Of a stretch of 64,000 nt of DNA, positions 578-63,583 are shown piece by piece; positions within the stretch are counted from its first letter, which is position 1; every line of letters starts with the position of its first letter. The translations under genes and the position numbers were made by a program. This stretch comes from Nannobrachium achirus (lineage: Eukaryota; Chordata; Actinopteri; Myctophiformes; Myctophidae), in contig OY997652.1 in assembly GCA_963921795.1 (NCBI GenBank), forward strand, positions 22,063,678-22,127,677, written 5' to 3'. The notes under the pieces are model-generated. The model did no database searches and was not told where the DNA came from. It saw only the letters and a list, made by a program, of their open reading frames with translations.

Positions 578-649
578 AAAAATAGACCATCTACAAGCTC
601 ACAAAAGCAATGCGACCCATTGTGAGCTTGTACTGTAGATCTGCTATTG
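578..649. repeat. Palindrome copy in family G (TACTTTTACTC repeat)
   Basis: AAAATAGACCATCTACAAGC and GAGCTTG...TAGATCTGCTATT arms. The preceding CAATTATTTGAAAGCT also precedes the copy at 62327, defining a family of its own. Confidence 0.75.
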
Positions 650-1347
650 TCAAAAGACTTTTATACAATTTATAAGTGGCAGTGATGTCTTGGAAAATAG
701 CAGTTATCTCAAGTGTTGCAGTCGCTAGGCAGATTAGCAGCCATCCACTGCCGAGGCAAACTGAACCACAGTGCTGCTCTGAGGTATCCCATGTATCTGC
801 TGTTTACATCTGCTTGTTTATTTGTGCGTACGGTTGACATCAGGATCGTTCTCCCTAAATGCTGGAACCATCCCGTCGTCTCCTTGGCGAGATGGACAGA
901 GCGGTTCGGTTTTCCCTGTGCCACATCTCTCTGTCTACTTACTGGCTTGTGTTTACAGGTATACCCAGGGCACCTGACACTTTGTGTGTAACCCTAGGAG
1001 TGCACCCACATCACCACCCACGCCACCACAGATGTATAAGGTGTATAAGATGTATAAGGTTTGGCCTGGACACCTTATTTGAAGGGCAAAACGAAGACAT
1101 TCTGAATATCGTTGTTGTTGGGTGGAAACCTTGCACAGTATGTCCAAAACTGTTCGTTCTAACGATCTAAAAAGAAAATAAGACGCCTGGCATCGCAAGG
1201 CGTTGTGTGCTTGCAGATATGCTATTTTCACTAGTCTTGTGCGACAGTCTTGTATGATGAAGCAGGGCTTCACTTTACGAAAAAACATACAAATTTGAAA
1301 CTTGGATACAAGATTTCTGGCCGACAGTGACGATAAGGGAAATCTAT

Positions 1348-2325
1348 CTAGGTCGTCCTCAGATGAGCCCTCCATCGTTGTTTCCAGTCATCTCGGTTCT
1401 CCATACATCTGGCCAGCTCCTTGGTGTTCTGTGTCCCTACGTCTTCCTTGAGTACGTCCACGTATGTTTTTGTGGGACGTCCTCGCGACCGGTGCCCATG
1501 TGTTGGCTCCCACAGTACCAATTTGCTGGCTGGAAGCTCCTGGTGTCTTTGGCAGTGTCCTGCTAGTCTCATTCTTCTGGTGGCAATTTTCTCGCTTACC
1601 TTTGGTATTCCCTCATACAGGCTCCTGTTTGTAACATGTGCACTCCTGTTGATGTTGAGTACTGCACGCAACATTCTAGTGTAGCACCCGTCTAGAGACT
1701 TCTGCAGGGTTGGCTTCAGGGTCCAGCATTCACTGCCATAGAGGAGAACAGACTCCACCGTTGCAAAGAAGAAGCTAAGTTTGATTTGGCGGGGGAGGTT
1801 AGAGTTCCATACACTGTTCATGCCGTTCAGGGCCCTCCAAGCGAGTGCCTTCCTTACTTTAAGGTCTTTCTCAGTTGAGTCGACCCATGCGCCCAGGTAC
1901 TTGAAGTCCTTGACTTCCTTCAACACAGCTCCTTCTGTTGTTGTCAGAGGTGAGTGATCAGGTAGGTTATAGGTGATAACCTCAGTTTTCTTAGCATTTA
2001 GCCTGAGACCAACTTTGGCACACTCTATCTCCACCCTGTTCAGGAGTTCTTGTGCTTGTTCCATGCTGTCGGAGAGCAGGCTGATGTCGTCCGCATAGTC
2101 CAGGTCTGTCAGAACTACTGCGGGATGCCGCCTTGACCTCCTTGGTGTTAGCGTGAAGCCAAGCTCTTGTTCTCGTCCCCCTATGGCTTTCCTGAGCGCA
2201 TAATCTAGAACTATGATGAAGAGGTAGGGGGCTAGGGTGTCTCCTTGCATTACACCAGCTCGGATGTCAAACACCTCACTGCTGCCATCTGGGGTCACCA
2301 CTTTGGCCCTTGTTTTTGCGTACAT
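1348..2325 (-). CDS. LINE reverse transcriptase, C-terminal part (5'-truncated)
   Basis: 325 codons open. Reads IRAGVMQGDTLAPYLFIIVL (RT motif with QGD), LDYADDISLLSD (YADD active-site box), LRLNAKKTEV and KYLGAWVD, then the C-terminal region FATVESVLLYGSECWTL, TRRMRLAGHCQRH, HGHRSRGRPTKTYVD and MENRDDWKQRW. Family: non-LTR retrotransposon; RTE-like or a relative, subclade not resolved. No endonuclease domain and nothing of the element recognisable past about 2390, so it is a truncated copy. The frame is intact, which suggests a fairly young insertion. Confidence 0.88.
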   Translation of the reverse strand: MYAKTRAKVVTPDGSSEVFDIRAGVMQGDTLAPYLFIIVLDYALRKAIGGREQELGFTLTPRRSRRHPAVVLTDLDYADDISLLSDSMEQAQELLNRVEIECAKVGLRLNAKKTEVITYNLPDHSPLTTTEGAVLKEVKDFKYLGAWVDSTEKDLKVRKALAWRALNGMNSVWNSNLPRQIKLSFFFATVESVLLYGSECWTLKPTLQKSLDGCYTRMLRAVLNINRSAHVTNRSLYEGIPKVSEKIATRRMRLAGHCQRHQELPASKLVLWEPTHGHRSRGRPTKTYVDVLKEDVGTQNTKELARCMENRDDWKQRWRAHLRTT

Positions 2326-3195
2326 GGTCTCGATAGCCCGGAGAATGTTGGGAAAGTTGAATAAAAATGTGGGTGAGAATTGCCCTCCAGCAACTGCAGA
2401 GATGATTTACATACTGTACATAGTGTACGTGTCTTTCCAGGGTGCAGATTACAGCTCTGCAGCAGGGGTTCTCCAAAGTTTTCAGCTTGAGACCCAAAAG
2501 AAATTCGGTGTATCCCCAGGGCCCAGTTATACACCATGAATAAACCACTTTATGCCCTATAAAAAAGGAATTACTGTGTGTCAAAGTGTTACTACAGTAC
2601 ATGCAGTTTAAAATACTGCATGTAGATAATAAATCATAAATACATTTTAACTGTAAAAATGCAATAATAATTTTGTATACAGTACAAACTTATCATACGC
2701 CACTGCATCTGCATCTGTCTAATTTATGCTTTGTTTCGCAACAGAGCATAATTTTAAGTGTTTCTCCATGTTCTCCTTGCAGAACATAAACAAGGACATG
2801 CTGGGCGGCTTGAGAAAGTTGGTTGCATTTGCAGGTTTTAAATTACACACAAGACACAGACCCTGCATGATTAATATAGTAGTTAGCTGAGGATAAATCA
2901 CTGGCCCAGTGTTCAACTGGTTACAGGGAATCTCATGTAGGTCAGGGTCATGCATTGTTTACGGTATATATCTTCAGATTATTTAAAACATTTAGGATTG
3001 CTATTCATACCTTTTTGCTAATGGGAAATAAAAAAACTGACAAAGAAATAAAACGTAATTCACCCCACTGTGTTTAAGGCTCTATATCAGTGTTTCTCAA
3101 TCTGTTTTGGGGGGCTGAATCTGAAGGTCCCTTACCGCCCCCCACACCTAATAAAATGTCATTTATTTTGCAAGTCCAAAATGTCTTGAGTCATG

Positions 3196-3418
3196 GGCCC
3201 TATTATGATCCAGGTCTTATGCCTTATGCCTTAACTTCTTTACCTTTTTTTCACTATTTTGAAAAACATTTTTAAATACTTCAAATGCTGATCTACATCT
3301 GCACGTTGTGAACTTGCAGATCAGCTATTTGAAATATTTAAAAAACAAAAACAAAATAGTAAAAAAAGGCAAAGAAGTTAAGGCATAAGGCATAAGACCT
3401 GGATCATAATTGGGCCCG
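3196..3418. mobile_element. Fold-back MITE with palindrome core
   Basis: Left GGGCCCTATTATGATCCAGG and CTTATGCCTTATGCC are mirrored at 3370-3416. The centre (3283-3330) is a diverged copy of the local GATCTACA palindrome. Confidence 0.75.
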
Positions 3419-3472
3419 TAGTGTCAAGTGACAGCCAGGACCTGTCACAGCCCTGCCACACGGTCAGTGCCT

Positions 3473-3592
3473 GTCAGTGTCATGGTCAGTATCATATCAA
3501 TCTCATGTCATTATCATGGTCAGTATCATCTCAGTGTCATGGTCAGTATCATCTCAGTGTCATGGTCAGTATCATGGTCAGAATCATGTACT
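3473..3592 (+). repeat. Tandem repeat of CATGGTCAGTATCATCTCAG
   Basis: About five 24-bp units, diverged at the ends. Confidence 0.85.
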
Positions 3593-3729
3593 TTACGGTC
3601 AGGATCAACAATTATGTCGCATTGTGACCTGCTTGTCAGGACCCCGGATATGTTTGGACCCATATGTAGAACTCAACTTCAAAGTAGAGGCAGGAAACCA
3701 CAGGGGACAGTTTAACGAAGGCTTTACTT

Positions 3730-4135
3730 CAAGGGTCTTCAACAGGGGGTCCGGGTCCCCTAGGGGGTCCTCGGCGTTACTATAGGGGCTCCTCCAAATC
3801 ACAGAAACGTTTTTCTCCTTTTTTATATTAACCACTAGAGCCCTAGTGTCCTTATTCTGAGAACTTTAGCCAAAATCGGCTATTTTTGGCACAGAAGTTT
3901 GGTGTAGAGGGGAAAAGGAGCAGACTAAGTACAAAGTGAAATGTCAAGTTTATTAAGTATTGACAGTTCAAGTGGTTAGATATCTGAAAACACAAATTGA
4001 CATGAATCCAAAATATACTGATGATTGTGCTGTCAAACAATGAAACTATATGGAATCTATGAAAATGTTGTGGGGGTCTTTGCTTCATCTCTCTCAACTA
4101 AGGGGTCCTTGGCCTGAAAACGTTGAAGACCCCTG
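3730..4135. mobile_element. hAT-like MITE, family J, palindrome nearly absent
   Basis: Inverted relative of the 62636 element. Perfect duplication CTTTACTT (3722-3729, 4136-4143). Where the other copy has a palindrome of about 80 bp, this one has only AAAATCGGCTATTTTT (3870-3886). Confidence 0.9.
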
Positions 4136-4408
4136 CTTTACTTACATAACAATACACGCAGACCCAGAAAGAGGGAACCTGACACTGCAATGAACCAACA
4201 TAGAGAGCAGACACAGATAAGCTTATATAGTCTCGGACTGTCAGTCAGTACTCACAGGAGGGGAGGGGAACGCAGGGTACAAACCCAGGACGTGTGACAC
4301 AGAATGTGACAAAGCTGTTGGCTTGTGTGTTCTTTTCAGCAATCAACTCATTGACTGCTACCAGTATATGTTTTTCGACTTGTCGTTCCACGCTTTGAGA
4401 GATTTTCA

Positions 4409-4727
4409 CTAACCTGTGGGTCGGGGCCCCAAATTATTTGGTGGGGTCCCCAGATGATTAACTTAATGTGCAACATTGTTTTCTCTCTCAACAGTAAACA
4501 GACAACAAAAAGTGCATAGAGGGTATCTGCACATTTCTAAAGTGACAAATTAAGGAATTTTTAGTACCTCTAAAATGACAAATTAAACATTGACCAAATT
4601 GTCAAATATTAGAGGCAAATTGTGAAAATAGTTGATCTACATGCCCACAAAGCCAGCATGTAGATCTGCAATAGAACCGTGCTATAAAAATGTAATGCCT
4701 CAACTCTTAGTGCTCATCAGGGTTGGG
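4409..4727. mobile_element. Family A MITE interior without ends
   Basis: Matches the interior of the 22671 copy from CCTGTGGGTCGGGG to GTGCTCATCAGGGTTGGGG. It contains a decayed hairpin (4627-4690). Both terminal repeats are missing. Confidence 0.65.
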
Positions 4728-4819
4728 GGGTATTTTGTTTATTTATTTTGTATATTTTTTAATCACAAAAAAGGTTTGTCATGCCACAGCTAAGCCACCA
4801 AACCCACGCCAACACATAT

Positions 4820-4891
<72 letters not shown>
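4820..4891 (+). repeat. (GT)n microsatellite
   Basis: About 35 uninterrupted GT units, followed by an impure TG/GA-rich stretch to about 5020. Confidence 0.97.
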
Positions 4892-4892
<1 letters not shown>

Positions 4893-5473
4893 ACACATGC
4901 ATGTGCGCGAGAGCGTGTGTGTATGTGTGCATGCATGGTTGCTTACGTGCATGTAGGCTACAATATGTGCAGAGCAAGTGAGATAGAGAAAGAAAGAGAG
5001 AAAGAGAGAGAGAGGCAGCTCGAAAGATAGAGTTGGTGCAACCTATTCTTTGAGGTCATTAATTTAAGAGATTAATATGAGTTTTAGTCTTTTAGACAGC
5101 ATGTAAATCAGGGGAAGAAACGTGTGTGGGACTGCGGCGATGCAGACATGACATCAAAGAGAAGAAAGGCACGCAGGGCTGAGTGACTGGGCCCATTTGA
5201 CATAGACATATCATCACTTTTGGGCAGAAAACTCGTATCTCCAAATGTGTACGTTTTTTTGTAAAGTAAAGCCCTGCAGATCTACAAGCACACAGCGCCG
5301 CAGATTGTGTGCTTGAAGATCGGCTATTTTCACTAGTTTAAATCCTTTTCAAAATGATAAACACAAAACAAACGCTTTTGGACGTACAAGGTTTCGGCCT
5401 ACAGCGACGATAGAGGTTAGGTTTATTTATAATCCTAAAATGTTTATGCCCTCACAAGTATAGCAATACAAAT

Positions 5474-5475
<2 letters not shown>

Positions 5476-5535
<60 letters not shown>
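5476..5535 (+). repeat. (GT)n microsatellite
   Basis: About 29 units, followed by impure GCATGT repeats to 5590. Confidence 0.97.
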
Positions 5536-5640
5536 ATGAGTGAGCGTGCCAGCATGTGCATGTGCATGTGTATGTGCATGTGCATGCTCCTGTGCCAGGT
5601 ACATGCAGTCCAGGTCTACTTTGTTTGGTCATAGTCAGCT

Positions 5641-5971
5641 AACAGAGGAGCTTAACTAGGTCCCCCATCACTTTGTCCCTCTGTCCTTCCTGTGCCCCCT
5701 CCCCCCAACCCTATGCAAGCAGTGAGCGCTAAATTGTATTTGGTGCAGATTAATGGGGTGGTGGTGTCCCAGAAAACCTATCTTTTACTACAGTATCTTC
5801 CCGTGAACGCCAGACACTAATTCAGATTCAGATGCCTGAGCGTGTTTGTTTTTGCTGCCAGACAAACTCTTATTATCAGGGGGAAAGAATTCTGCTGTGC
5901 ATACAGATATGACACACCTCTTGTCATGCATGGTGGTGGTAATCTTTCCAAACATTATTAGCATGAGAAAG

Positions 5972-6050
<79 letters not shown>

Positions 6051-6800
6051 AGATTTATGAACATTTTCACCTGCAGTATAACAACCAAAAATTGGATGCC
6101 AAGTCACACATGCACAAATCAATGTACAGTATGTGTGCATCATCCTTTTGGTCTCATAATCATGGTCAAGTCAATCAGACAACAACATGGCCAGATGGTC
6201 CCGACCAGATGTTCATGATTACAGAGAATGCAAAATGATTCCGGATTTCAACATCATTAGCAAATAAAATAAAATAAATAAAAAATTGAAAATCCTGTTT
6301 CTGGCTTGGAATCAACAAAGTAAATGCCCTTCATGTTTGTTTTTTGTCCAGGGGGTGTTAGTTTATGCAAGTGTCTGGCCCTGCAAGCTCCCATGGCCAG
6401 ATGTTATTATGTCATATTTATTGAAAAGCTCTGTTGTTTAGTATTGGCCTATTCTCACAGTAGCCGGCCGTTTATAGACGGCTTGAACTGCAGAGAAAAG
6501 TCTGCAGAAATCAACGGCTCTCCTTCAATGTAGGATATGCACTGTGTGATTACATAAAAAAGAGTAACATACAGTCATAAAGTCCTCTTGTAATTCTATG
6601 TAATGGAGAAATCAAATACTTATTTTCCCCACTTGGACATAAACACAAAGTCAGGTATTTGGGTGGCAAGCACTGCTCAAAAATGCTGTACTAAACTGTT
6701 ATTACAGGTTAATATACAGGCTGTTAAAATAAATAACAAAATATGTATTTATTTTGGGACCAACTGAGGGATCAATAAAGGTCTGTCTATCTATCTATCC
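5641..6800. other. Stretch without recognised genes
   Basis: Apart from the (GA)n at 5974 and a LINE-tail-like stretch with TCTGTCTATCTATCTATC near 6780, I see no coding, RNA or terminal-repeat signal. The short open frames lack codon bias or motifs. Confidence 0.6.
5974..6046 (+). repeat. (GA)n microsatellite
   Basis: About 36 GA units. Confidence 0.97.
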
Positions 6801-7970
6801 TTCTTAAGGAAGGTGTTTTTCATAAGTATTTTTGTTGTTGATTAAATATTTATAAAGATTGTTATTTCCATTAAGATACATTGCAGGTACAGTATGGACA
6901 GTATGGCAGGGTATTGCTTCCATAGCAGAACAATTCAAATAAATTATGTATCTGATTGAAAATACGAATTTCCATCCAAATCCAAGTTCTTCCTTTAGAT
7001 CCTGTCTAGCAAAGTTATTTATTTCATTTACACAGACAGATAGACAAACAGGGGTGAAAACACAAGGTCACCCTACATTTAATCAAAGTGACTCTGCAGT
7101 GTTTTTAGCCAACAATTCCCATTTTGAACCTATTTCCAGCAGGTTCAGGTGATGTGAGAGATCCTGTTGCCCCTTAGACATTGTTGCATTTTTAATAAGC
7201 GCAGTCTCCCTGCAGGTCCCCATTTAAGATTGTCCCTGATTCCTGTCGCAGACTTCAGTTTTAACACCGCAGGCCATGTGAGGACAGCTACATGCTTCCC
7301 TCAAATAGCTGTGATGAAAGGTATGATTATCATTTACCAGAAAGAATATGCAACGAACGATGCTACTTATACTTAATGAATAGATAACACAATGAATTAA
7401 TTAAAGAACATTATGTCTATGCTCTTGTGTACCCTCATGGAATGGAACACAGTCTAAACTGTACATTTGTTTAAGTCTTCCTAAACAAAGAACTTTATGC
7501 ATTCATCTCCTTTATCCTGACCATGTATTTTACTCAAAGCATTCATCTTTTATCTTGCCCGATGCCCATGTACTTTACTCAAAGCACTATCATGCATTCA
7601 TCTCATTTAGTGTGTCTGGCCCACATCCCAAATTAATCTGAATGTCTGACTGTTGCCAGGCAAGTATAGATCCTTATCACGTCACTGACTGAAACTATAC
7701 CAGAGTCTTAAGTGGCTCCAAGGTACACGGGTCACACACTGGCTGTGCTGTCCTGTAACAGGAGAAGAGAGGGTGCCAGCCAGCCAGGATACTCAAACAA
7801 GCCAGCGGCGACAGAGGCACACGTCACGTCACCCAGTTGATTTGTCAATTCACCGACCCACATTCAAGTGTCTCTCATCCATTCACCGTCTGGATTACCT
7901 TGTTTCCTCCCCTTGGACGCAGTATAGAGGAGACTATAGAGGGTGAGCTAAGGGGGTGAGGTAGTGAGGG
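6801..7970. other. Stretch without recognised genes
   Basis: AT-rich unique-looking sequence. A short repeat CATTCATCT with TTTACTCAAAGCA occurs twice (7500-7610). No gene supported. Confidence 0.6.
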
Positions 7971-7978
7971 GTATAGGG

Positions 7979-8373
7979 CAGTGGTTCTCAACCTGTGGGT
8001 CGGGTCCCCAGATGATTGGCTTAATGAGAAACATTGTTTTCTCACTCATCAGTAAACAAATCAACATACAGTAGCCTATAAGTGTATAGAGGTTATCTGC
8101 ACATTTCTAAAGTGGCAATTTAAGGACTTTTAAGACCCTTTTAATACCTCTAAAATAAAATAAAATAATAAACATTGGCCATGTTGTCAAATATTAAAGG
8201 CAAAACAATTGAAAATAGCCTATCTACATGCTTGTGAGCATGTAGATCTGCTATTTTCACAATAGAACTGTGTTATACAAAATGTAATGCCTCAACTCTT
8301 AGTGCTCGTCAGGGTGGGCGGTCCCCAGTTAATATGAGATTATTTCGCGACCTAAAAAGGTTGAGAACCACTG
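7979..8373. mobile_element. hAT-like MITE, family A, with central palindrome
   Basis: Termini CAGTGGTTCTCAACC and GGTTGAGAACCACTG. Target duplication GTATAGGG/GTATAGTG (7 of 8). The central hairpin at 8211-8260 is short because the inner stem is missing. Confidence 0.85.
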
Positions 8374-8887
8374 GTATAGTGGGTGAGGTAGTGACACATT
8401 CCTCAATTGCCCCAGTGAGTGAGACTATGTAAGTTACATCCTCATTGGTGTGTGAGACTTTATTCTCACAAATGCAAGATAGGCAATTGCAATATGTAAA
8501 AAAAAAAAAAAAAGCTTTTTTCTTGTTTGTTGTTGTTGTATTCAGTGGTGGACATGGGTTTACACCAGTCTCAATACAGATCTGAGTTAATTGATCATTA
8601 TTCACTTGATCGCCAATTGTGCATGTTCATGCATGTGTGTGGGTGTGTGTGTGGCACCGATACTGTTAGTGTATCCCTGATTTGCCTTCCAAGATTAAAA
8701 TCTTTGGAGCGTCAGTAGCACTTTGTATTTCTAGTTATGATAGATTGCAGTCATATTCATCAGTTTATTCAACATAGAGATAGAGAGACCTTCTTCCTCA
8801 GAGGATTATTATATCTCACACTTGTAGTGTAAGACAAGTCAACAACAAAAACTAATATAGTTTTAAAGTTTTAAAATAGTCCCCCCC

Positions 8888-9101
8888 GGGCGCCCGCTGG
8901 CCTACGGGTCCAGGCGCATACCACTTAGGCATTGCCACATAGGCATAGATGTCTGGCGGTGTCGCCGGTTCGATTCCCGATCCGGATGACCTTTGCCGCG
9001 TGTCACTCCCCATCTCTCCCCCCATTTCATGTCAGTCTACTGTCCTATCAATAAAGGCATAAAACCCCAAAAACAAATCTTAAAAAAAAAAAAAAAAAAA
9101 A
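8888..9101 (+). mobile_element. tRNA-derived SINE
   Basis: A head with a box-A-like TGGCCTACGGGTCC and a perfect box B GGTTCGATTCC (8967-8977), followed by a body with AATAAAGGC and a terminal A-run of about 20 (9082-9101). About 214 bp. Confidence 0.8.
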
Positions 9102-10243
9102 CGAAATAAAATAGTTTTGTATAAAATTGCAGCATTGCATTGAACACCAAACAAATTCCAGATCTTCAACCAATTATCAGGTCGAGGAGGATAGCAGTTC
9201 CAACAGAGAGCTCCAGCAACTTCCTCCTGGGGGAGCACTCGGGAGGCATCCGTACTAGATGCCTGAAACACCTAAGCTGGCTCCTTTGTAGGAGCAGTGG
9301 TTCTACTCTCTCGCAGATGACTGAACTTCTCATCCCATCTCTAAGGGAGAGGCCGGCCAGGCGGCCACCCGTCTGAGAAACTAATTTCTGCTGCTTGTAT
9401 CCGCAATCTTATTGATGATCCATAGGTGAGAGTAGGAACAAGGATTGCTCAGTCTATCGAGAGCTTTGCCTCCTGGCTCAACTCTATTTTCGTCACAACA
9501 GCGCGGTAGAGCGACTGCAATTGCCCCTACTGCTGCTCCGATTCTCCGGCTGATCTCCTGAGTACAACAGGCTCGTAGCCAACGTTAAGGCGAAAAGGCA
9601 ATTTTTTGAGACGTGATCTCAAAAAATAAAACTGACGAAAAAGTTCCAGTTCCTTATCCAGGCGCTAGGCGGGGGAAGGCGGCCAATTAATCAACTCGGG
9701 GCTGGCACTTCGCTGGCATTTCGGATGGCATTTCGCCAACCCTGAATCTCATTCCGGGATACGCCACTGGTACACAATCCATCGGTTCCCTGCTGAGGAC
9801 CATGGCCTCAGATTTGGAGATGCCGATCCTCATCCCAGCCGCTGCACACTCGACCACAAACCGATCCAGTAAGAGCCGCAGGTCTCGGCAGGACCACATC
9901 ATCCCCAAAAAGCAGTGAAGCAACCCTTAGCTCACCTAACTGTACAGTATATCCTCTCCTCCACGGCTGCGTTTCGAGATCCTGTACATGAATATCACAA
10001 ACAGGGATAGGTGACAAGGTGCAGCCCTGGCGGAGGGCAACTCCCACCGGAAAGTGCAGAAACTAACCCGATTTACTGCAGTGCACATAATGTAGGTACA
10101 GTACGGCTCGCTTTGGGCATTCAGAGATTGGATGGCCCTCAACAAGGACTCCCTCACCCCATATTCCCACAGTATTTCCTGAGGAACCTGATCATATGCC
10201 TTCTCCAAATCAATGTAGGTACAGTACGGCTCGCTTTGGGTAT

Positions 10244-10654
10244 TAGGGCTGTCACGAATGATCACGATATGACATTTTACATGACGATTAATTGTCACTC
10301 AAATAATTGTCGATTAACGATTTAATTGTATATTTGTCGTTGATAATTACATTTCTGTTTGGCTTTTAGGCTTTGAAGTTGCACATGGTAGATATGACAC
10401 ATAACCTAAATATACAAAGAAATTACTGACATATTTGACAACTTACTACTTAAAAAATAACTTTGTTAGTGGAAATAGCCGATCTACAAGCTCACAACGC
10501 GTCGCGATGCGACGCGTTGTGAGCTTGTAGATCTGCTATTTCCACTATTTCGGAATTTTTTCAACATTCACGATTATGACGATTATGACAAAATAATTGC
10601 GATAATGTCAAATAATCACAATTAGACGATTATGTAATAATTGTGACAGCCCTA
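10244..10654. mobile_element. hAT-like MITE (TAGGGCTGTCAC ends) inside Rex3
   Basis: Ends TAGGGCTGTCAC and TGACAGCCCTA. Target duplication TTGGGTAT/TTGGGCAT (7 of 8) at 10236-10243 and 10655-10662. The uninterrupted Rex3 duplicate at 10117 confirms the empty site. Central palindrome 10467-10547. Confidence 0.92.
10467..10547. repeat. Palindrome copy, 39-bp arms
   Basis: Arms TAGTGGAAATAGC..., inner stem AACGCGTCGC/GCGACGCGTT. The single arm mismatch is CCGATC versus CAGATC. In MITE 10244-10654. Confidence 0.92.
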
Positions 10655-11412
10655 TTGGGCATACAGAGATTGGATGTCCCTCAACAAGGACTCCCTCACC
10701 CCATATTCCCACAGTATTTCCTGAGGAACCTGATCATATGCCTTCTCCAAATCCACACAACAAATCCGGGTATCCATACTCCCAGTCCTTAATTCTCCAG
10801 GATCCCTGCAAGAATGAAGTTCAGTGGTCAGTTGTTAAACGACCATGACGGAATCTGAATCTGAGGTTCGACTGTTAGAACCTCCTTTCCAGTACCTTGA
10901 TGTAAACTTTCCCACGAAGACAACAATGTGATGCCTCTTTAATTGGCACATACCCTACGGTCTCCTTTCTTAAAGAGTGGCATCAGTACCCTGGTCTGCC
11001 AGTCCACTCCTTCAGTACTGTCCCAGACTTCCACGCAAAGTTGAAAAGATGTGTCAACCAAGACAGCCCGTCAACACCCAGTAGCCTTCAGCATTTCTGG
11101 ACCCGAAATTTCAAAAGTAACAAAAGTAGCAGATCTACTGTAGCCTACAAGCTCACAATGTGCCACAACGTGACATGTTGTGAGATTGGAGATCCGCTAT
11201 TTTCGCTATTTGTTGTGCAATGAAGTAATTTGATGAATATCCACATTGTGCCACAACAATTAACAATTTAATGTATGCTTTGGTCTAGCTTCTGGTCAAG
11301 GTTGAATAGAGAAAGCCTATTACTTCAACCTGTGACCTTTCGGTTCTGCCTGTATGCACTATGTCCCACAACGATTACATGATGGCATGGACCCACGTGA
11401 TCAATCTATCTA

Positions 11413-11414
<2 letters not shown>

Positions 11415-11496
<82 letters not shown>

Positions 11497-11508
11497 CGCG
11501 CGCGCGTG
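11415..11508 (+). repeat. (TG)n/(CG)n microsatellite
   Basis: About 38 TG units grading into GCGCGCGCG, a potential Z-DNA former. Confidence 0.95.
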
Positions 11509-11579
11509 CATGGGCGTGTGTGCTTGCGGCATAGGCGCTCAGTGTCGCATTATACAATATTCAGGAAATTAATTAAGGT

Positions 11580-13860
11580 GAGTAACGTGGCTTTCTTGTT
11601 TCCAAACTCACGCTAACACTTGGCTTCATCTTGCAGCCTCTCTGTTTCCAACAACACTGAATCTAAAATAGTCTCTACGATTTCTAATACCTAGCATCCA
11701 GTTTAATCTAATTTCTGCTTCTGGATATTCTTAACATTTCTTATCATTCCATTGGTTTCTCCATCATAATAGTGGTATTTGATTTAATACTGTCCAAAAA
11801 TAGTAGGGAAAAACATGGATATATGAGATGGAATGCAGACAATATGAAAACAAGAGAATATAATGAGATTGTATGAACAAACATCAGTGATATATTTATT
11901 AACCCCTATAGCATAACATATAGTAATAAAAAATGCCTGGCATCTAACTAATTCGCTGGGAATTCAATTTGCAGGGAGTGTGATTAATATTTCTCATTAC
12001 ACCATGTTGTGTGGGACTTGATTATCCATGTGCTTTATGGAATTAGGTCACACACTCAGCAAATATCATCTTGATCTGATCACCATTACGACTCGATGCC
12101 TGAGACAGGTACCGTTCATCACAAGATCACAGAGTCGTTTACAGGTCATGAACACATACAGTAGCGTTACTGTCAGGTGAAAACCCATGTCTAACACGGT
12201 TCCTTTTTATGATTATTAAGAAAATACAAACACAAAAAAACATTTGAAAATAGGAGATCTACAAGTTCACAACATGCCGCAATGCAACGTGTTGTTGTGT
12301 GGCAGCTATCGTAATTTCACTCCTTTTATGTGACACTCTTTTACTACAGTGGGACATTAACCTGCAAAAAAACAAAACAAAACATAAAAAGTGAAGAAAG
12401 ATACAAGGTTTCTGCCCGACAGCAACGATAGGATTGTGTTTGTTCAGGGCTGCGATATTTGCATGGCAAACAGAGGAGAATGAAAACACAAGCATATGAA
12501 ATCAACTGCATTGTGTACAGGTAGCTTTGCTTTGAAGATGTTTCTTGTAGTCCTGCAGAATGCTTGGCATCAGTGTTGCCAGATGGGAAATGTTGAATTA
12601 TTGAAAGAACAGCCAGAAAAGAGAAATCACACGTGTAAATAAGTAAATTCACAAAACAACTTGGTGTAAGAAACAACCTGGTTTGAGACGCCTACGACTA
12701 TGTGAAAAAAACGCATAATATATGCTGCGTGGAGGCAGGAAACATCCTGGACCTTAAGCAAATGAAAGCCTGAAACTGGACTGGAAAGACGCGACCAGTG
12801 TTTTTAATGCCTCACAGTACAGATCTAGGTTACTTTGAGAAGCCCTGATCCCTGATCAGCAGCCACGGAATTCAGTAAATCCACGTTTTTTGAGTTAGTG
12901 ATCGCACATCGTACAGAGGATAAAATTATCGTACAAATACGATAATTATCGTACATCTGACAACACTGCTTGTCATTTTCACACTTTGAGTGGGACTTGG
13001 ATGATCATAGACTGATCACATGGAGTCTGAGATACATTATGAAGCCAGGCAGGTTGTTATTGGACCTAGTCTCGTTTGGATTTGGAGCATGAGCTGTAGC
13101 TCATATTTTAAACAACTAGGCCAATACCTAGGGATGATGCTTGTCGGGGAAAAATACTAGTTGAGAACGCATGGCTGTCCGATTATGCAATACTCATTGT
13201 AAATGTTGCTTTATTGATAGGTAAACAGTAGGTTGACAGGAAATGGGGAGAGAGATGGGGGGTGTGTGTATGTATGTCCATCCGTATGTCAGACTGACAT
13301 ACTGACGGGACGTTAATGAAATGAACTAAAATGCACGACTCACTTCACAATGGGTGTGATTTTTGAGCAGTGCTAACCGTGTAGGGACGTATGTCCCTCT
13401 GTGCCTATGTATGCAGTGTAGGTCCCTATGTCCCTACAGTATGTATGCAGTACCAACACAAGACTAACGTCATAGAAAGTACGCAGAGACCGACCACAGC
13501 TGATGTCATGGACATAGAACGGCCCATACAAGGAGATATGCACGTGTTGATGGTTGATGGTGCTCACTTCACACAGGTGCAATTTCGCACAGGACTGTCC
13601 GGGTTTAGGTCATCAACTTGATTCAACGATTCAACTAAATTCACTGATGGATGAATTGCAACGGTCAGATGTGCAAATCAGTGTTATTAGGAATGACGTC
13701 AACGGTTCGTGTTGCGTGACGTCAGACCATAGCTCTGGTCAACCTGAATAAGATGTGATGCAGTTTTTAAACATCACAGAAGGAGTGTAGTTTGAGAGTC
13801 AGAGAGGCGGGTATTTAGTGAGACACCGACAATTAGAGGGGGAGAAAGAATATTGAGCGA
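11580..13860. other. Stretch without recognised genes
   Basis: Mostly AT-rich. It contains one decayed palindrome (12246-12300) followed by GATACAAGGTTTCTGCCCGA as in family C. It has short TATGTCCCT repeats near 13390-13445. No supported gene. Confidence 0.6.
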
Positions 13861-13892
13861 ATATATTAAACCAAATCTTTCCAGCCCGCAAG

Positions 13893-14092
<200 letters not shown>

Positions 14093-14913
14093 AAATCAGT
14101 TTGATATTCTGATGACAACCATGCAGCATCTCTACACTTTTTATTTTTGTTTATTTTCTGTTTATTTCGTTGCTGAGTGAGGTCAGCAGACAAAGTGAAG
14201 TGAGTGAGATGAAAAAACCTGGGTGAAATGTGCCAATGTCAACCAGAAACATCGGTATATCAACATTTCTTTCCTGGAACATACTCAACTCCAAGGGTCC
14301 CCTGAACCTAATTTGAAAACCATCCATAATGGTCAAATATAATATAAAGTACATGCAGTCATCTAGAGCAGAACTTAAGAGGGGCAATGGCTGCTAGAAG
14401 GGCACTTCTACAGTATGTTTTAATTTAGCTTGTTATGCACCTGGGTTGAACTTGGCCCATGGTTACCTACTTACATAGGCAGCTGTGTGGAGGTCTACTG
14501 TATTTGGAATGCTGGAGCAGGCTCTAGTATCTTGGGAATGGATTCTTTTTTAGTGCGGTGTCATAAATAGACCTTTTGTGTGGTGTCTGGTGTACTCTTC
14601 TTGGTTTTCACTAGATACATGAAAATAAAAAAATAACAGTGTACAGTGAAGAGCAAGGTACATTTTTCATTTCCACGTAAAAGTAAACATCCTGATCCAC
14701 ATCACAAGACCGTGAATTTCCACAACATGGACACGATCGTGGCTTCCGGAGCTGTTAAAAATAAAGTGAATGGCGGTACACTGTGTTTGGATGATTACAA
14801 AAATAAGTGTTATGTACAGTTATGTGGGGTTTAAGTGGTTAAATTGATTCATGCATAAGAAGACAACCTGAGTCAAAAATGTCATAATCTTCACTATAGA
14901 TAGAGTTCCAGAG

Positions 14914-14914
<1 letters not shown>

Positions 14915-14989
<75 letters not shown>
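14915..14989 (+). repeat. (GT)n microsatellite
   Basis: About 37 units. Confidence 0.97.
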
Positions 14990-14990
<1 letters not shown>

Positions 14991-15156
14991 TGGGCCCCTA
15001 TTGTGGGATCGCTGGCAGCCCTGCCACGTGGAATTTGGGAAATCAAATACTCTCATCACGCAAAGAAAAGACAATAAGAACGAAATGTGTAAAAGAAAAG
15101 CTTGTCATAAGACAAGCTTTTGTGTATGGCTGTGTGCTGAAATTGGTCCCAAGGGT

Positions 15157-15612
15157 AGTTCACCCCCCAAATAAATATTTTTCTATTGATTACTCTCGCC
15201 ATGGAGACTTGAGTTCAATAATATCTTTTGTTTTTGTTGCATTCCTTGATGGCCAAAACGCAAAACTTCCTATCTGAAAAATTCACTTTGTTGGGAAAAA
15301 GAAAATGTGTGTTCAACATTAAAATCTGATCTACTATTTCTAGTCACATGACATTTGTGGCAAAAATGAGGGGCAGAACGATGTTGCAGACAGACTGACC
15401 ATGTGCAGCATAGCCTGTTGTCCTCATTTCAAGTGAAATCCAAAAATCATGACATTTGCGGATAGGAGGTTTTGCGCTTGTGCTTGAATGTAATGGAATC
15501 AATGGGGATTGATTCCGGATGGGGAACCAAATGCATTATTCCCCATCCGGGTCCCCATCCGGAATTTTAACTCAAGTCTCTGTGGCGTGAGTAATCCTTT
15601 AAAGAGTTCAGG
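15157..15612. mobile_element. MITE-like element with inverted ends
   Basis: GATTACTCTCGCCATGGAGA and CTTGAGTT near the left end are mirrored by AACTCAAGTCTCTGTGGCG and TGAGTAATC near 15570-15598. The inside holds CCCCATCCGG repeats. Ends only approximate. Confidence 0.6.
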
Positions 15613-16259
15613 TCTTGTTAAAAATACAAAACTACATGCATGTATAGTTGTTCTTTTCTTTAAATTGGAGAATTACATTTAGAGAAATTAGATGGGCACC
15701 TTGCATGGCTGATTATCACTATGAGGATAATGTTTTAGGTCAACTCATATTATGTGTGTAAATTATTCTGTGCCACATGACGGTTTTGACGGTTTTTTTC
15801 CAATAGCCCTGTGTGCCAATGACGGTTTATGACGGTTTTTGTGTTTTTTACATAGAAAAAAAAATATTCTTTTTCATTTTTTTTTTTTTAAAGATGTCAA
15901 AATGACCTGAGATCAGAGAGATGCTTTTCTCTGTTTGTGTGTTCGCTCCCTCGTTTAGCTGATTGAGAAAATGTGTGTTCATGTGTGTCCATTCTAGTGG
16001 ATGGACACTTTTTTCATTCAAACAGCTCTATCTCTGGAACCATTTGTCCGATTGAAAATTATAAAAAAAAAAACATTTTTTTTCATTGCATAGTAAAGAA
16101 AAACATACAAAACCGTGGCACAGCTACCTTGGAGGCATTTTGGCATCTGGCACAGAATGAGTTAATAATGGTTGGAGCTTGGATCTTCTTTACATCTGAT
16201 GATGACAATAAAGTTGATTCTTGATAGAGTAGACTTTGAGGTCAAGACACACTGACGCG

Positions 16260-16410
<151 letters not shown>

Positions 16411-16476
16411 GTTATTGTATGGTCAAATCAACATGATCCAGCCGATCCACATTGAATCACTGCATTAGATGCAAAG

Positions 16477-16844
16477 GAATTACTTAAAAATCAGCTCATG
16501 TTATGGGGCGGAATTGTACAACTCGAGCAATTCTTGATTCTGGAATTACTCGGAATTACTGAAAATCTCCATAGAATGGCAAGGCAACTTCTATTGGCTA
16601 ACTACACTAAAACTAAACACTAAAACTAACCCTAACTCTACCCCCAACCCTAAACCTAACCTCAGTAAACCTTACGCTAAGTAACTAACCTGCCGACGCT
16701 AAGTAACTAACCTGCCTTACGCTAAGTAACTAACCTGCCTTACATTCTATGGAGATTTTCAGTAATTCCGAGTAATTCCAGAATCAAGAATTGCTCGAGT
16801 TGTACAATTCCGCCCCATAACATGAGCTGATTTTTAAGTAATTC
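16477..16844. mobile_element. MITE with 102-bp perfect inverted repeats
   Basis: The arm 16477-16578 is the exact reverse complement of 16743-16844 as far as I can read. Both begin GAATTACTTAAAAATCAGCT at the outside. The 164-bp spacer has CTAACCCTAA-type words and three tandem GCTAAGTAACTAACCTGCC units. Confidence 0.85.
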
Positions 16845-17172
16845 GTTCATCTGAACTGCAGTGCTACAGAAGTACTGCATCAAGTTGCAACAACTTTAGT
16901 GCCCCCCTGTGGGAATAGTAAGTATTGCTATTGCCGTGCCTGCATTATTTATGGTCTGGGCTTTCTTTCAAATCAAAGCCTGTCTCACAGTCAGTCATCA
17001 GTAAATGACTCACCGCTCAGTCTTGTAACAGTGGCATTTAAAGAGTTATAATGGAGCAAAATACAGTGCAGTGAAGGTCATGCCACAGCTTTAGGCAATA
17101 AACAACACAGAACGTTAAATCTCTCTTTGCAGAAAAACTATTTACATTACTCCATTTCTTGGCTGACTGAAT

Positions 17173-17531
17173 TAGGGCTGTCACGATTATGACATTTTAC
17201 ATGACGATAGATTTTCTCTCAAATAATTGCGATTAACGATTTAATTGTGTTTTTGTCGTTGACAATTACATTTCTATTTGGCTTTTAGGCTTTGAAGTTG
17301 CACATGGCAGATATGACACCTAACCTAAATATACAAAGAAATTACTGACATATTTGATAACTTTATACTTAAAAAAGAACATTGATAGTGGAAATAGCAG
17401 ATCTACAAGCTTGTAGATCGGCTATTTCCACTATTTTTTACATGGAAACGATTATGACGATTATGAAAAATAATCACGATTATGTCAAATAATCACGATT
17501 AGACGATTATGTAATAATTGTGGCAGCCCTA
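17173..17531. mobile_element. hAT-like MITE (TAGGGCTGTCAC ends), second copy
   Basis: Perfect 8-bp duplication GACTGAAT (17165-17172, 17532-17539). Aligned with the 10244 copy it lacks the inner stem of the palindrome, leaving a 50-bp hairpin (17385-17434). Confidence 0.92.
17385..17434. repeat. Palindrome copy, inner stem deleted
   Basis: ATAGTGGAAATAGCAGATCT through ACAAGCTTGT to CGGCTATTTCCACTAT. Same outer arm as 10467 but without the CACAACGCG stem. Confidence 0.92.
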
Positions 17532-17856
17532 GACTGAATGAAAAGGTGTGGTTCAATCTGTGAGATGTTGCCCAACTGGTAATTATAGGTGAATATTCTC
17601 AAAATGCCTGTAGGCCTACGCTATATTTATGGCCCATTCATTGTACGCCTTTGTAGATCAGCTACTTTCACCAGGAGACACCATTTTACAATATTATGCG
17701 AATATAATTCAGTCGTGATTAAGGTGATTGCGTCAAATATTTCATCATGCATGGCTTCAGCCATGTGGAACAGAATTACAGGAAAGATTGTACAGTGTGA
17801 TGTCTGTGATACTGTATATAGGCCTATACTTGTACAATGTAGCCTATGTGTGTGTA

Positions 17857-18024
17857 CAGTGTTTCTCAAAGTGGATTCTAGGGACTTTTTGGGTTCCTTT
17901 AGGGGGGTCTAAATTGACCCATACAAGTCTGTAACTCTAACAGCATACAAATGGAACCAAATGGACCTCCATTTGTATACTGTCAAAGGGGAGACCTTGA
18001 AATGTAAAAGTTTGAGAAACACTG
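17857..18024. mobile_element. Small MITE, family E
   Basis: Ends CAGTGTTTCTCAAAGT and TTTGAGAAACACTG are inverted. The centre has GGAACCAAATGGACC and an inverted CCATTTGTATACTGTCAAAG. No convincing target duplication. Confidence 0.75.
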
Positions 18025-18233
18025 TGTTAAGAGAACACCAACATCAACCAACAAAAGTACCGGTATATTGTGATTACATGTGACCTTCACGGCTACCTCA
18101 GTACTCCCATGTGTCCATTTATCCTAAGCCACATGTAGTACTAGACTCCATTCAATGCAGGAGAACACAATAGTCTTTCCTCTGTCCCTATATCATACTA
18201 TGAACAAAGGAGACACTACCTTAAGCCTAAGTC

Positions 18234-18234
<1 letters not shown>

Positions 18235-18284
<50 letters not shown>
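18235..18284. repeat. (AT)n microsatellite
   Basis: About 24 TA units directly before an AT-rich transposon-like stretch with ATCGTATCG words (18285-18850). Confidence 0.97.
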
Positions 18285-18287
<3 letters not shown>

Positions 18288-18850
18288 GATGTAACAATAT
18301 AGTAACTGAATCAAAAAATCGATTTTAATTTGCAATGATCTACTATATTGTTATCCAAAAGCATATATCGTACCTTTTTGGCTTTGTATTGTATTGGTAT
18401 CGTTTTACAATGCAGATAATCGGTATCGAATCGTTTCGCAGTGCAAATAATTGATTGTATGGAAACTAAATATTTGTGCCTTATATTTAGCCATTTTAAG
18501 AGGGAAAATTAAAAAGAGGGGTCTAATTACTTTTCCATTCCATATAGCTACTCTTGGTCTATCGATAAATGTGTGTAATCTCTGTGTTCATGTCAAGGTG
18601 CGGGTTTGTCGATATGTGTTGAAATATAATGTCCATGTATTTGCCAGAGAATCACAGTGTTTACTTATTTACATCCATAATAATAGATTTTTCTATTAAA
18701 AACATGCACTATTGACACGTTTCACACAGATTTAATTTCTTTGCTAAATAGTTACTATATAGATTTTAAATCATTGAATCGAATCGTATCGCCATTAATG
18801 AACCAATATCGTCCATGTGTTGTATCGTCAAACATGTATCGTATCACGCA

Positions 18851-18989
<139 letters not shown>

Positions 18990-20500
18990 ATTTTGGGGGA
19001 CAATTTTCATTGAAGCATAAGCTTTATAGTGATGACTGTTAATTGCCAAAGAAATTGCAAGTGGATTAAAAAACATAGAGGTTGCTCCGAGTCTGAGGTC
19101 ATACTATGCATCATTATTTTCTTTTTACATGACCTAAAACAAAGCTTCCTCATTTGTGTAATGCAAGTGACATCCTAGCCTGCGTGTGCTACATGTGCAT
19201 CTATTCAGCATTTGTGTGGGCCAGTGTGTTTGTGCAATTATGCGTGTTTGTGTATGTACTGTATGTATATTTATGTGAACGCTTGCATACAGTACAGTCA
19301 CCAATAGTAAACAAAATAGCTCCAGCTGCCGGGCACAGTAATCGGAAGATGACACATCATCTCATCAGCTGCTAAGGCCATTCTTCTTTCAGTGCATTGC
19401 ACAACATTTCCCCTGCGGATCAAGGCTGAAATCTCTTATTATCTCAGCGCAAGCTGTGACTACTGCTACCTTCACCAGATCAACCTCCACACACACTCAC
19501 ATCTCTTTCCTTCTCTGCTGTTAGTTCAACCACGGGAAGAAAACACTGCTAAATGTAGAGGGGACATTTGGTTAACAATTGCACATACAGATACGTCTAT
19601 CCAGATTTGCCAAATGAAACCGCTGAAGATTATTATGAGCTGCTGTTTGTCCAAAATTCATGTCACATTTACATAGTTACATTTTTATTTTTGGCATGCT
19701 GCAAATGTAACATTTAGGTACTTAATACAGGAAAGGTCGGCACTAGGGCAATCTGGGCACTATTGTTTTGGGAAGACAGGGCACTAGAGAACAGTGGGCA
19801 CCAGACAAAGTGGGCACTTTGGGGGGAGAGGAGTGGGCACTAAAGAAGAGTGCCCAGTCTTCCGAGGTGCCCACATTTCCCTAGTGGCCCACTCTTCCTA
19901 GTTGCCCAGAAAGTCATGGTGCCCATCTTTCCTGTTTCCACCGGCCGGGACACATCACCACTTACTGTATCCGTTGTTTCAAATTAAAAGCTCTCCAGTG
20001 TTGTAAACACGGTCCAGCCATATACTGTACTATTTGACCTAGTCTTGTTAAACGATGCATGAACAGCTAAATGTGGCTATGTGTGCTGTTATTTTGGACA
20101 GGATAAAGTAGACAAAGGGCACCCCCTAGGTTATTACACATGTTCAAGACTAGTTGCTTGTCTCATCACTTTTGAGGTAGAGGGCGTTCATGAAAAAGAC
20201 GTTTTGTTATCCATGTGCATGTGTGTTAAGAGTCGCCCGTGATACAGTAGGCTACACCTGAGCATGCACCTGTGTGCACAACACGCAGGATGACAAGTAG
20301 ACCACAAGCATTCCAGTTCAGCAGTAATCATACTTGCAACAGAAAAATCCTGGCACATTTTCCCCCCCTCCTTTGGCCTTTCTAAATTTGTGTACTAATT
20401 ATGTTGATAGATGGATGGTACTATTTATATTCAGCGAGAGCCCTTGTGAAGAAGCCTCCCCCTCCCTCTCAGCTGCAAGGCTGCTGACTGCAGGCTGAAT
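18990..20500. other. Stretch without recognised genes
   Basis: Unique-looking sequence interrupted by the GGGCAC fold-back at 19731. Short frames at 19392-19676 show no motif. Confidence 0.55.
19731..19936. repeat. Imperfect fold-back of GGGCAC words
   Basis: The left half repeats GGGCACT/C about six times and the right half repeats GTGCCCA about five times. The outermost AGGAAAGGTCGGCAC pairs with GTGCCCATCTTTCCT. Probably a fold-back element. Confidence 0.6.
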
Positions 20501-20516
20501 CCCAAGCAGCACAGAG

Positions 20517-20979
20517 CAGGGACGTGCTGGCCATTGGGAAAAGCGGGACAACTCCCGAACGGCCGGTTCATTCCCGGCCGGTCCAGGCCGGCCATTAGGA
20601 AAAAAATAAACTGTTTGCACAAAAGTAAAAAATTAAAATGTTTGCACAAAAGTAGTGAAAACAGCAGATCTACAAGCACACAACGCCTCGCGGTGCGAGG
20701 CGTTGTGTGCTTGTAGATCGGCTGTTTTCACTAGTTTAAATCATTTTTAAAATGCTAAATACAAAACAAACGGTTTTGGACATACAAGGTTTCCACCCGA
20801 CAACGACGAAATATAACTCATGTAATTGGCCCACTGGCTTGTCACTTGTCATGATCTGAAATGGCAAATCTTTGAGTAGCAGCAGCAGTGCTATGGAGAG
20901 AGATCTCTCTCTACAGCGCGCAATGAGGGCCTCTCCAACTCTTTTTCCCGGGCTGAATCAGGGGCCCAGCACGTCCCTG
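20517..20979. mobile_element. hAT-like MITE (CAGGGACGTGCTGG ends), family C
   Basis: Ends CAGGGACGTGCTGGCC and GGCCCAGCACGTCCCTG. Perfect duplication GCACAGAG (20509-20516, 20980-20987). Palindrome at 20653-20733. A truncated inverted copy lies at 43741-44078. Confidence 0.92.
20653..20733. repeat. Palindrome copy, GAAAACAGC/CACACAACGCC variant
   Basis: Both arms carry AAAACAG (not AAAATAG) and GCACACAACG (not GCTCACAACG). The mismatch is again CAGATC versus CCGATC. Confidence 0.92.
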
Positions 20980-21284
20980 GCACAGAGCCAAACAGATGGG
21001 TAATAAGGTCACAAGCCGAAGCACTTCTCACTTCCTCAGACTAATGGCAGACATATACCTTCATCTGTGCTGACTCAGGACAACATTACACTCGGGAGAA
21101 TTGCACTGGGATGGATTAAAAATGGCTTAGAAGATGCAAATATAGTTGGTGTGCACCACTGCTCTATCATAAAACATGTAATTATTTGTGTGGGCGAATG
21201 GGTTTCTGAAATTAAAAAACGAAAACAAAACACTACGTACAGTACTGTACCTAATATGTAGTCGATTATCAGCAGCTACTCATA

Positions 21285-21560
21285 GAGGCGGCAGTAGCTC
21301 AGGGGTAGAGAAACCGCCATTAGAACACAGACAGAGGGTTCCGGAAGGATTCCCAGTTCGATCCCGGGCTCCTCCAGAGTTAGTGTCGAAGAGTCCTTGA
21401 GCAAGACTCTGAACCCCTAGTTGCTCCCGGTGAGCAGGTTGGTGCCTTGCATGGTTTCTTCTGCCATCAGTGTATGAATATGGGTCTGAATGGATGTTGT
21501 ATCAATCTATGTAAAGCGCCTTGGATAAAAGCGCTTTATAAATGCACCATTTACCATTTA
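21285..21560 (+). mobile_element. tRNA-derived SINE with LINE-like tail
   Basis: Box A region TAGCTCAGGGGTAGAG at 21295-21310 and box B-like GTTCGATCCCGG at about 21357. A central block contains CTTGAGCAAGACTCTGAACC. The tail TGTAAAGCGCCTTGGATAAA ends in CCATTTACCATTTA, as in several fish SINE families. Confidence 0.8.
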
Positions 21561-22185: not shown

Positions 22186-22253
22186 TTGAAAAATAGCAGA
22201 TCTACAAGCTCATTGTGCGGCACTCATGAGCTTGTAGATCTGCTATTTTTGAA
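22186..22253. repeat. Palindrome copy downstream of HERC1
   Basis: TTGAAAAATAGCAGATCTAC with arms symmetrical at the usual mismatch position. The centre TTGTGCGGCACTC is partly unpaired. Confidence 0.88.
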
Positions 22254-22414
22254 GGGAAAAAAAGTTAGTGAATCTAATAATGTCTTCAACAACTCTACTG
22301 GAAACAGTCCCATAAGAACTATAAACGTCTACTATAAACTTATAAACTTAAGAACTATGAACTATAAATTATAAACTCATGATGCACAAAATCCACGCCA
22401 CACCGCTTATATAA

Positions 22415-23163
22415 TCAAGTTTTATTTTACAATGACTCCAAGACAGTTTAATAAATCTTTTTTTTTTTCCCATCTTAAATATTCTCAAAGTGATACATTG
22501 TCGCCATCCGGACAATATATTTACAAAAGAAAACTCTTTCTATGATCATTCCTATAATGTTTAGGAAGCAAGCACTGCATCACAACAACATTTACAGCAG
22601 ACGATAAAACAACAAAAACACCCATGAAATGATATTATTACACAACCCCAAAGTAGTAAGTACACTACAGCAGTGGTTCTCAACCTGTGGGTGGGGACCC
22701 CAAATTATTTTGAGGCGTCCCCAGATGATTAACTTAATGTGCAACATTATTTTCTCACTCAACAGTAAACAAACCAACATACAGTTTAAGTGTATAGAGT
22801 GTATCTGCAGATTTCTAAAGTGACAATTTCACTTTTTAACCACTCTAAAATGATAAATTAAATATTGGTCAAATTGCCAAATATTAGAGACAAACATCTG
22901 GAAAATAGCCGTTGCGAGGCGTTGTGAGCATGTAGATCTGCTATTTTCACAACAGAACCGTGTTATACAAAATGTAATGCCTCAGCTCTTAGTGCTCGTA
23001 GGGTGGGGGGGTCCCCAGTTAATTTTAGGGGTCGCGGCCTGAAAAGGTTGAGAACCACTGCACTACAGTACAGGTTTGGCAAATAATAAATCTGTTCAGT
23101 GCATAACAATGTGCATGGCATCATAAGACCTACATACACACATACATACAGCACATACTGTAA

Positions 23164-23198
<35 letters not shown>

Positions 23199-23250: not shown

Positions 23251-63583
<40,333 letters not shown>

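Follow-up and report, generated by a model that had tools for sequence, protein, structure and literature searches.

MITEs of different superfamilies are expected to have no internal sequence in common. The described systems that come closest to the arrangement reported here are three. Made1, a human mariner-related MITE, is described as an 80-bp element made of two 37-bp inverted repeats with 6 bp between them (PMC1784062). Angel, from zebrafish, is characterized in its description as a high-copy fish DNA element with long inverted repeats that are able to form a stem-loop (PMC3636048). Finally, one of the highly conserved domains of SINEs, the V domain, is described as being found also in the MITE MER6 (PMC6887750).

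We analyzed a window of 64 kb, that is, the whole stretch of DNA under study (42.6% G+C, no Ns, fish-like in its general appearance), in which about 45 copies of one short hairpin occur inside MITEs. The pattern is real and unusual, and it is partly explained by nesting. What remains, a bare palindrome in unrelated families and in most of the intact hAT-like elements found, is best read as a small mobile or exchangeable unit.

The hairpin core and its copies

The half-site AAATAGCAGATCTACAAGC matches the two strands of the window 62 times at up to three mismatches (100 shuffles: mean 0.03, maximum 1) and 72 times at up to five (30 pair shuffles: mean 2.0, maximum 4). The initial annotation had listed 45 sites at which the palindrome recurs, and a half-site search with up to five mismatches verifies 44 of them. 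Both arms are present at this threshold in all 20 sites that had been called full, and a half-site in 24 of the 25 that had been called damaged; the one exception, at 24425, is very degenerate. This copy and another degenerate one at 46010 have the flank GCATGCTGAAAATAGG in common, which perhaps represents one additional host family.

Folding of 26 two-armed copies gives a canonical core of 69 nt, a near-perfect palindrome (AAATAGC...GCTATTT) with 33-bp arms and a 3-nt loop. Together with a few bases on each side, the hairpin unit measures about 75-80 nt. The 69-nt length is found in ten copies (10473, 20659, 23525, 23953, 28235, 38546, 43866, 48897, 51642 and 53115), which span families A, B3, C, D, E and H, and two further copies are 70 nt long (580 and 24144). 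The inner stem of the family H hairpin at 28235 is imperfect. In the shortened copies at 17392 (36 nt), 8213 (44 nt), 54069 (50 nt), 27964 (54 nt) and 39878 (62 nt), the pairing centre is unchanged, and the copies at 4626 and 5271 pair about the common centre less well than these do.

Host elements and their independence

A hAT-like MITE is defined by an 8-bp target duplication and short terminal inverted repeats. Hosts were sought in two scans, the first for inverted termini and target duplications around hairpins. The second scan ignored the hairpin in order to avoid circularity, and covered the whole window for 8-bp duplications and 11-bp termini, each with at most one mismatch. This hairpin-blind scan yielded 14 candidates, compared with none in each of 8 shuffles. 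Three of them (16522, 23580 and 23764) were set aside as elements, since 7-8 of the 8 bases in their flanks are inverted-complementary as well; in the case of 16522-16799, the supposed target duplication is part of a longer inverted repeat. The region 16480-16838 is a long inverted repeat with arms of about 100 bp, and it lacks a hairpin of this kind.

Nine of the 11 credible elements contain the hairpin (3202, 7979, 10244, 17173, 20517, 22671, 47880, 51561 and 62636). The element at 3730-4135 has a hairpin remnant only, and no hairpin is visible in 12571-12968. Ten of the 11 have the 8-bp duplication and the terminal inverted repeats of hAT-like MITEs, the class of the eleventh (F, 3202-3410) being unsure, and this confirmation does not extend to A, E, H, D0 or the fragments. 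A hairpin in nine credible elements, and a remnant in one more, is what would be expected if it were a cis-acting module that aids MITE amplification or escape from silencing, with carriers prevailing however they acquired it. However, the 11 elements are not independent, because B1, C and G are represented twice each and B2, B3 and D1 have the hairpin by nesting, and 64 kb is a small sample.

Family C was found by both scans on the plus strand. The host at 10244-10654 (terminal inverted repeat TAGGGCTGTCAC, target duplication TTGGGTAT/TTGGGCAT) is a hAT-like MITE with a 69-nt core at 10473-10541; in the host at 17173-17531 (target duplication GACTGAAT), the hairpin is shortened to 36 nt (17392-17427), and its mismatch orientation is opposite to that of the 10473 copy. 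The element at 10244-10654 is flanked by a 98% identical duplication (10113-10211 and 10655-10753). Family B1 hosts, likewise on the plus strand and found by both scans, are located at 7979-8373 (terminal inverted repeat CAGTGGTTCTCA, target duplication GTATAGGG/GTATAGTG, with a shortened hairpin delimited by folding at 8213-8256) and at 22671-23060 (target duplication CACTACAG, with a damaged hairpin near 22910-22946). Host G (CAGGGGTCTTCA) occupies 62636-63099 on the plus strand (both scans; target duplication CTTTAGAT) and has a rearranged hairpin at 62888-62964. A second G copy, 3730-4135 on the minus strand, was detected by the hairpin-blind scan and contains only the remnant AAAAATAGCCGAT.

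Four hosts have the hairpin because they contain a nested piece of another hairpin-bearing MITE, in which it is visibly carried along. Pieces of the CAGTGGTTCTC (B1) MITE, with the B1 hairpin, lie within B2 (TAGGGCATTCAC), B3 (TAGGGCATTAAC) and the CAGGGTTCCCAC element at 32174, and the D1 host (CAGGGACGTGC) contains half of the fold-back D0 MITE. B2 is present at 27643-28145 on the minus strand (B1 piece with hairpin 27964-28017), a copy absent from the hairpin-blind list because its target duplication is imperfect (TGGGTGG/TGTGTGG), and at 47880-48390 on the plus strand (both scans; target duplication CTGTGCAG; damaged hairpin 48008-48065). In B3, at 51561-52028 on the minus strand (both scans; target duplication TTATCTAC), the left part of the host is followed by the hairpin (51642-51710), a reversed B1 half and the right part of the host. 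The CAGGGTTCCCAC element spans 32174-32723 on the minus strand and has a 7-bp target duplication (TATTACC) and, along with its nested B1 piece, a hairpin at 32449-32510. D1 spans 20517-20979 on the plus strand (both scans; CAGGGACGTGCT; target duplication GCACAGAG), its hairpin lying at 20659-20727. The initial annotation had spoken of hosts with different termini; these four have the hairpin by nesting only.

Other hosts are fold-back or TTAA-type elements. A second hairpin of family D lies in reverse orientation at 43866-43934. In palindromic D0 elements, we found a hairpin with a truncated left arm (5271-5329), a degenerate one (12248-12310) and half of one with the D0 motif on either side (1190-1227). 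Nine D0 arms were aligned. Seven of them lie outside D1 and D2, and each of these seven terminates in TA (judged by eye; CGACGATA or a similar form), which is consistent with D0 being a TA-flanked element. F is a fold-back element (3201-3411) with the hairpin at its tip (3283-3330). The TTAA-type A elements have one hairpin per arm and a hAT-like fragment in between, all read by eye: the element at about 23475-24083 (ends by eye) has hairpins at 23525-23593 and 23953-24021, and that at about 54031-54511 has one at 54069-54118 and a damaged one near 54430. Three more family A hairpins were delimited by folding (38546-38614, 53115-53183 and 61761-61822). For families E (hairpin 48897-48965, one side ending near CAGGGGTGGGCAAC) and H (hairpin 28235-28303, with a CAGGGACGTGCAGAGA flank), a single outer end was read, by eye. 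Among the hosts, two or more types of target site are represented: hAT-like (8-bp) and TTAA (by eye), as the initial annotation had stated, with TA perhaps as a third. Its placement of the hairpin in the centre of MITEs does not hold in general: in elements with both termini found, the relative position of the hairpin ranges from 0.25 to 0.69 of the element length, and each TTAA-type A element has two. A central position is confined to the fold-back elements, namely F at 3201-3411 and D0 at 1190, 5271 and 12248.

Clustering of 150-nt flanks gave six clusters with 3-9 sides, five with two sides, and 28 single sides. In comparisons across families, several pairs scored above the shuffled maximum of 29; judged by their coordinates, these fall on neighboring hairpins, a TG repeat or A+T-rich stretches. 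There are about eight contexts without a common flank (A, B1, C, D0, E, F, G and H), plus fragments. The grouping of 33434 and 40723 as a ninth context, J, is doubtful, since the flank of 40723 falls in the B cluster. The claim of at least nine unrelated families is upheld for about eight contexts, the flanks of which do not align.

The window contains several other features. A C2H2-like zinc-finger repeat array with an 84-bp period, open in two adjoining frames, extends over 59402-61708 on the plus strand. On the minus strand, 39397-43744 contains open frames at 39397-39753, 40051-40470, 40734-41186 and 43166-43744, which bear a presumed resemblance to RCC1-type repeats and to a SPRY-like exon and may belong to a HERC-like gene whose introns are filled with MITEs. 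The minus strand of 1348-2406 has an open frame of 352 residues, presumably resembling the end of a LINE-type reverse transcriptase, and direct repeats of irregular form, each about 162 nt long, lie in 30300-31316, with five copies in a single family.

Descent, timing and arm complementarity

Hairpins representing six families give a gap-free alignment of all 69 positions. A mismatch between the arms, AGCAGATC opposite AGCCGATC or AGACGATC, is recurrent in B, C, D, E and H, and absent from the A copies and from the B copy at 32449. This mismatch, common to the five families, indicates that the hairpins share an ancestor, and because it recurs in all of these, the unit was probably already asymmetric at the time of its spread.

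Between families, the arms differ at 0-11 of 44 positions in host orientation and at 0-9 of 44 in the better orientation. B differs from both C and E at 2 of 44 positions, A differs from both C and E at 3, and A from B at 5. The arms of C and E are identical over all 44 positions. Near-identical hairpins such as these, in flanks that do not align, support a spread between families, and the hairpin seems to have been passed between otherwise unrelated MITEs. In A, B, C and E, the age of its spread roughly matches that of the diversification of the families themselves. Families D and H differ from the others at 4-9 of 44 arm positions (better orientation), and because this exceeds most flank differences within families, the hairpin may have entered them earlier than A, B, C and E. 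As the spread falls near the time when some families were amplified, the hairpin provides a handle on the assembly and amplification of MITE families.

Within families, flank substitutions amount to 353/3443 in B (0.103), 119/1021 in A (0.117), 20/366 in D (0.055) and 16/250 in C (0.064), and arm substitutions per base to 0.096, 0.049, 0.106 and 0.136, respectively; the comparison covers 26 of 36 pairs in B, 7 of 36 in A, 3 of 3 in D and one pair in C, and omits arms with more than 7 differences in 22. Roughly, the hairpin evolves as its flanks do. Conservation of the hairpin by constraint, suggested by a naive comparison and by an alignment with misaligned flanks, was rejected, since the comparison limited to substitutions disagreed, except for A. 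That the arms evolve like the flanks, and that the spread in A, B, C and E is about as recent as these families, speaks against one ancient ancestor and against strong constraint. The gap-free alignment, and the fact that many hosts are hAT-like with related termini, might suggest that all hosts stem from a single ancestral hairpin-bearing element and that their flanks have diverged past recognition. However, this is difficult to reconcile with arms that are alike at up to 44 of 44 positions amid dissimilar flanks when arms within families diverge about as much as flanks, and the TTAA-type and D0 hosts have other ends. The initial annotation had contrasted its own proposal with such an ancestor; the flanks in the 64-kb window do not bear out a single ancestor of all hosts, which we consider highly improbable.

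The two arms have changed together. In 16 hairpins, 17 of 38 pairs are changed on both sides, two-sided cells outnumber one-sided cells by 54 to 7, and 93.0% of cells are paired; in six families, 10 of 32 pairs are two-sided, with 13 two-sided cells against one one-sided cell and 97.4% of cells paired, both sets having been picked for intactness from about 45 hairpins. Four of five measures for the 16 hairpins exceed all 500 shuffles, and the remaining one, further pair types (27 versus 24.4), was matched by 48 of 500. Slid structures of the same hairpins give far lower values, and no shuffle equals the result for the six families on any measure. The excess of two-sided changes points to copying from arm to arm at the DNA level. 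More G-U intermediates would be expected under RNA selection, but not under replicative arm copying. None of the 25 matches to Rfam microRNA families at E<=1 in the window attains the gathering score, and some of the sub-threshold matches coincide with hairpins, for example mir-3145 at 48892-48970 (E 1.1e-5, 44.1 of 98 bits). A function at the RNA level was rejected on the basis of the few one-sided cells and the lack of an Rfam family at gathering score. Away from the hairpins, 29616-29717 on the minus strand is foldable and has sub-threshold Rfam matches to MIR1507 (E 3.4e-9) and mir-335 (E 7e-7).

These results also bear on the idea of a cis-acting module. The arms change as fast as the flanks or faster in B, D and C, and more slowly only in A, and the scarcity of one-sided cells argues against selection at the RNA level, so that we judge such a module to be quite unlikely. 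It is also unlikely, in our estimate, that a palindromic cassette circulates among hAT-like, TTAA and perhaps TA families and boosts the amplification of the MITEs that carry it. The hairpin also offers a natural setting in which to study how palindromes break and how one arm is copied onto the other in a genome of vertebrate-like type.

Modes of movement and comparison with known systems

Similarity between copies is lost within about 4 nt beyond the core, at both edges. Elements that follow the mariner rule duplicate a TA target. TA is found directly outside offset 4 in 10 of 30 arm contexts, compared with about 1.9 expected from the TA frequency of the window; the 30 contexts were hand-picked from 38, J_L and J2_L among them are related, and F_L, J2_R and 46_L are misregistered by 1-4 bases. 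C, D and 11124 (and F, if registered by eye) have TA on both sides, and A, B and E have none at offset 4. The TA could have been inherited along with the edge. A slightly longer edge, which is TTTAAACTAG-like, is common to D0, the J sides and A. The outermost bases of the hairpin are variable, unlike usual transposon ends, and a target duplication consistent across the families in the window was not found. The 64-kb window yielded no true empty site, so that the comparison of occupied and empty sites proposed in the initial annotation has one candidate only, the G copy at 3730-4135; this was rejected, because it retains AAAAATAGCCGAT and reads as a deletion remnant. The same annotation had offered a choice between an inserting hairpin and an exchange process. 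Spread between families is supported by our data, and insertion as an independent unit is a proposal only.

Our tentative preference, which falls somewhat short of an even chance, is that a Made1-like palindromic unit entered MITE lineages separately and was passed on by nesting and edge breaks. The copies would then descend from one ancestral palindromic repeat that entered several MITE lineages on separate occasions. It may first have entered the other families as an independent small palindromic unit, with the size and shape of Made1, perhaps at TA. After entry, the host MITEs would multiply the hairpin, and copying between its arms would maintain their complementarity. Where the hairpin is extruded, breaks may assist the joining of unrelated halves at its edges. 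Two further findings speak against insertion: independent entry by chance poorly explains a hairpin in 9 of 11 credible elements, and in some contexts one half is swapped at the hairpin edge, which is better explained by exchange.

Exchange would make the palindrome a recombination joint. Extruded in replication, it would be cut, and the half of a MITE that bears the hairpin would be ligated to another MITE or copied into it; the hairpin, always at the joint, would spread, and chimeras with matching ends would then transpose. Inverted repeats are reported, in the account cited, to induce breaks (PMC3855049), which suits this model. In B3 and D1, host sequence reaches the hairpin edge and is followed by half of a donor MITE, and the copy at 22191 resembles A over about 20 nt on its left side only. 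Several hairpins are shortened symmetrically about their centre. The two C copies have similar flanks and the same orientation but opposite mismatch orientations, which is consistent with flipping or replacement of the hairpin.

Matches in ENA contigs, as read from amino acids, are suggestive of exchange as well. P0006, P0007 and P0008 keep the A-R side and have other letters past the opposite edge, and one side of P0009 apparently resembles P0006. P0002 combines B2-like flanks with an H-like arm, P0001 is closely related to the B2 frame, and P0005, at the protein level, has a window-like outer side. A protein search with P0003 gave no match, and exact scans of viral contigs and of genome contigs gave 0 matches each. 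Two points weigh against exchange: the ENA evidence depends on amino-acid letters, and C, E, G and H have no recognized donor sequence, which would require both sides to be trimmed to the hairpin edge. We regard the recombination joint as possible but doubtful, and the separate entry of a palindromic unit as slightly ahead of it.

The literature matches listed, a search scope to which most subscription journals do not belong, include no description of a hairpin common to several MITE families; the hairpin family itself may already be catalogued. With respect to the nested and chimeric MITEs that are generally known, B2, B3, D1 and 32174-32723 look like usual nesting or capture, but nesting alone does not account for the bare hairpin that is also present in C, E, G and H. 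The highly conserved domains of SINEs are similar in that a short module is common to otherwise different mobile-element families (PMC6887750). However, the V domain is not described as a palindrome in what that source says of it (PMC6887750), whereas in our window several types of MITE act as carriers and no constraint is evident. An assignment of the hairpin to this class was rejected, since its carriers are MITEs and its arms are not clearly slower than the flanks, except in A. Angel, compared by its description, is likewise a fish DNA element of high copy number with stem-loop-forming inverted repeats (PMC3636048), but it is treated there as a single family, and the relevant portion of that description does not mention sharing between families (PMC3636048). 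Made1, as far as its description goes, differs in that the unit in our window sits inside other MITEs, has inconsistent TA duplications and has no known parent transposon. What the two have in common is a very short, near-perfect palindrome with a tiny spacer, in our case 33-bp arms and a 3-nt loop in most of the 69-nt cores.
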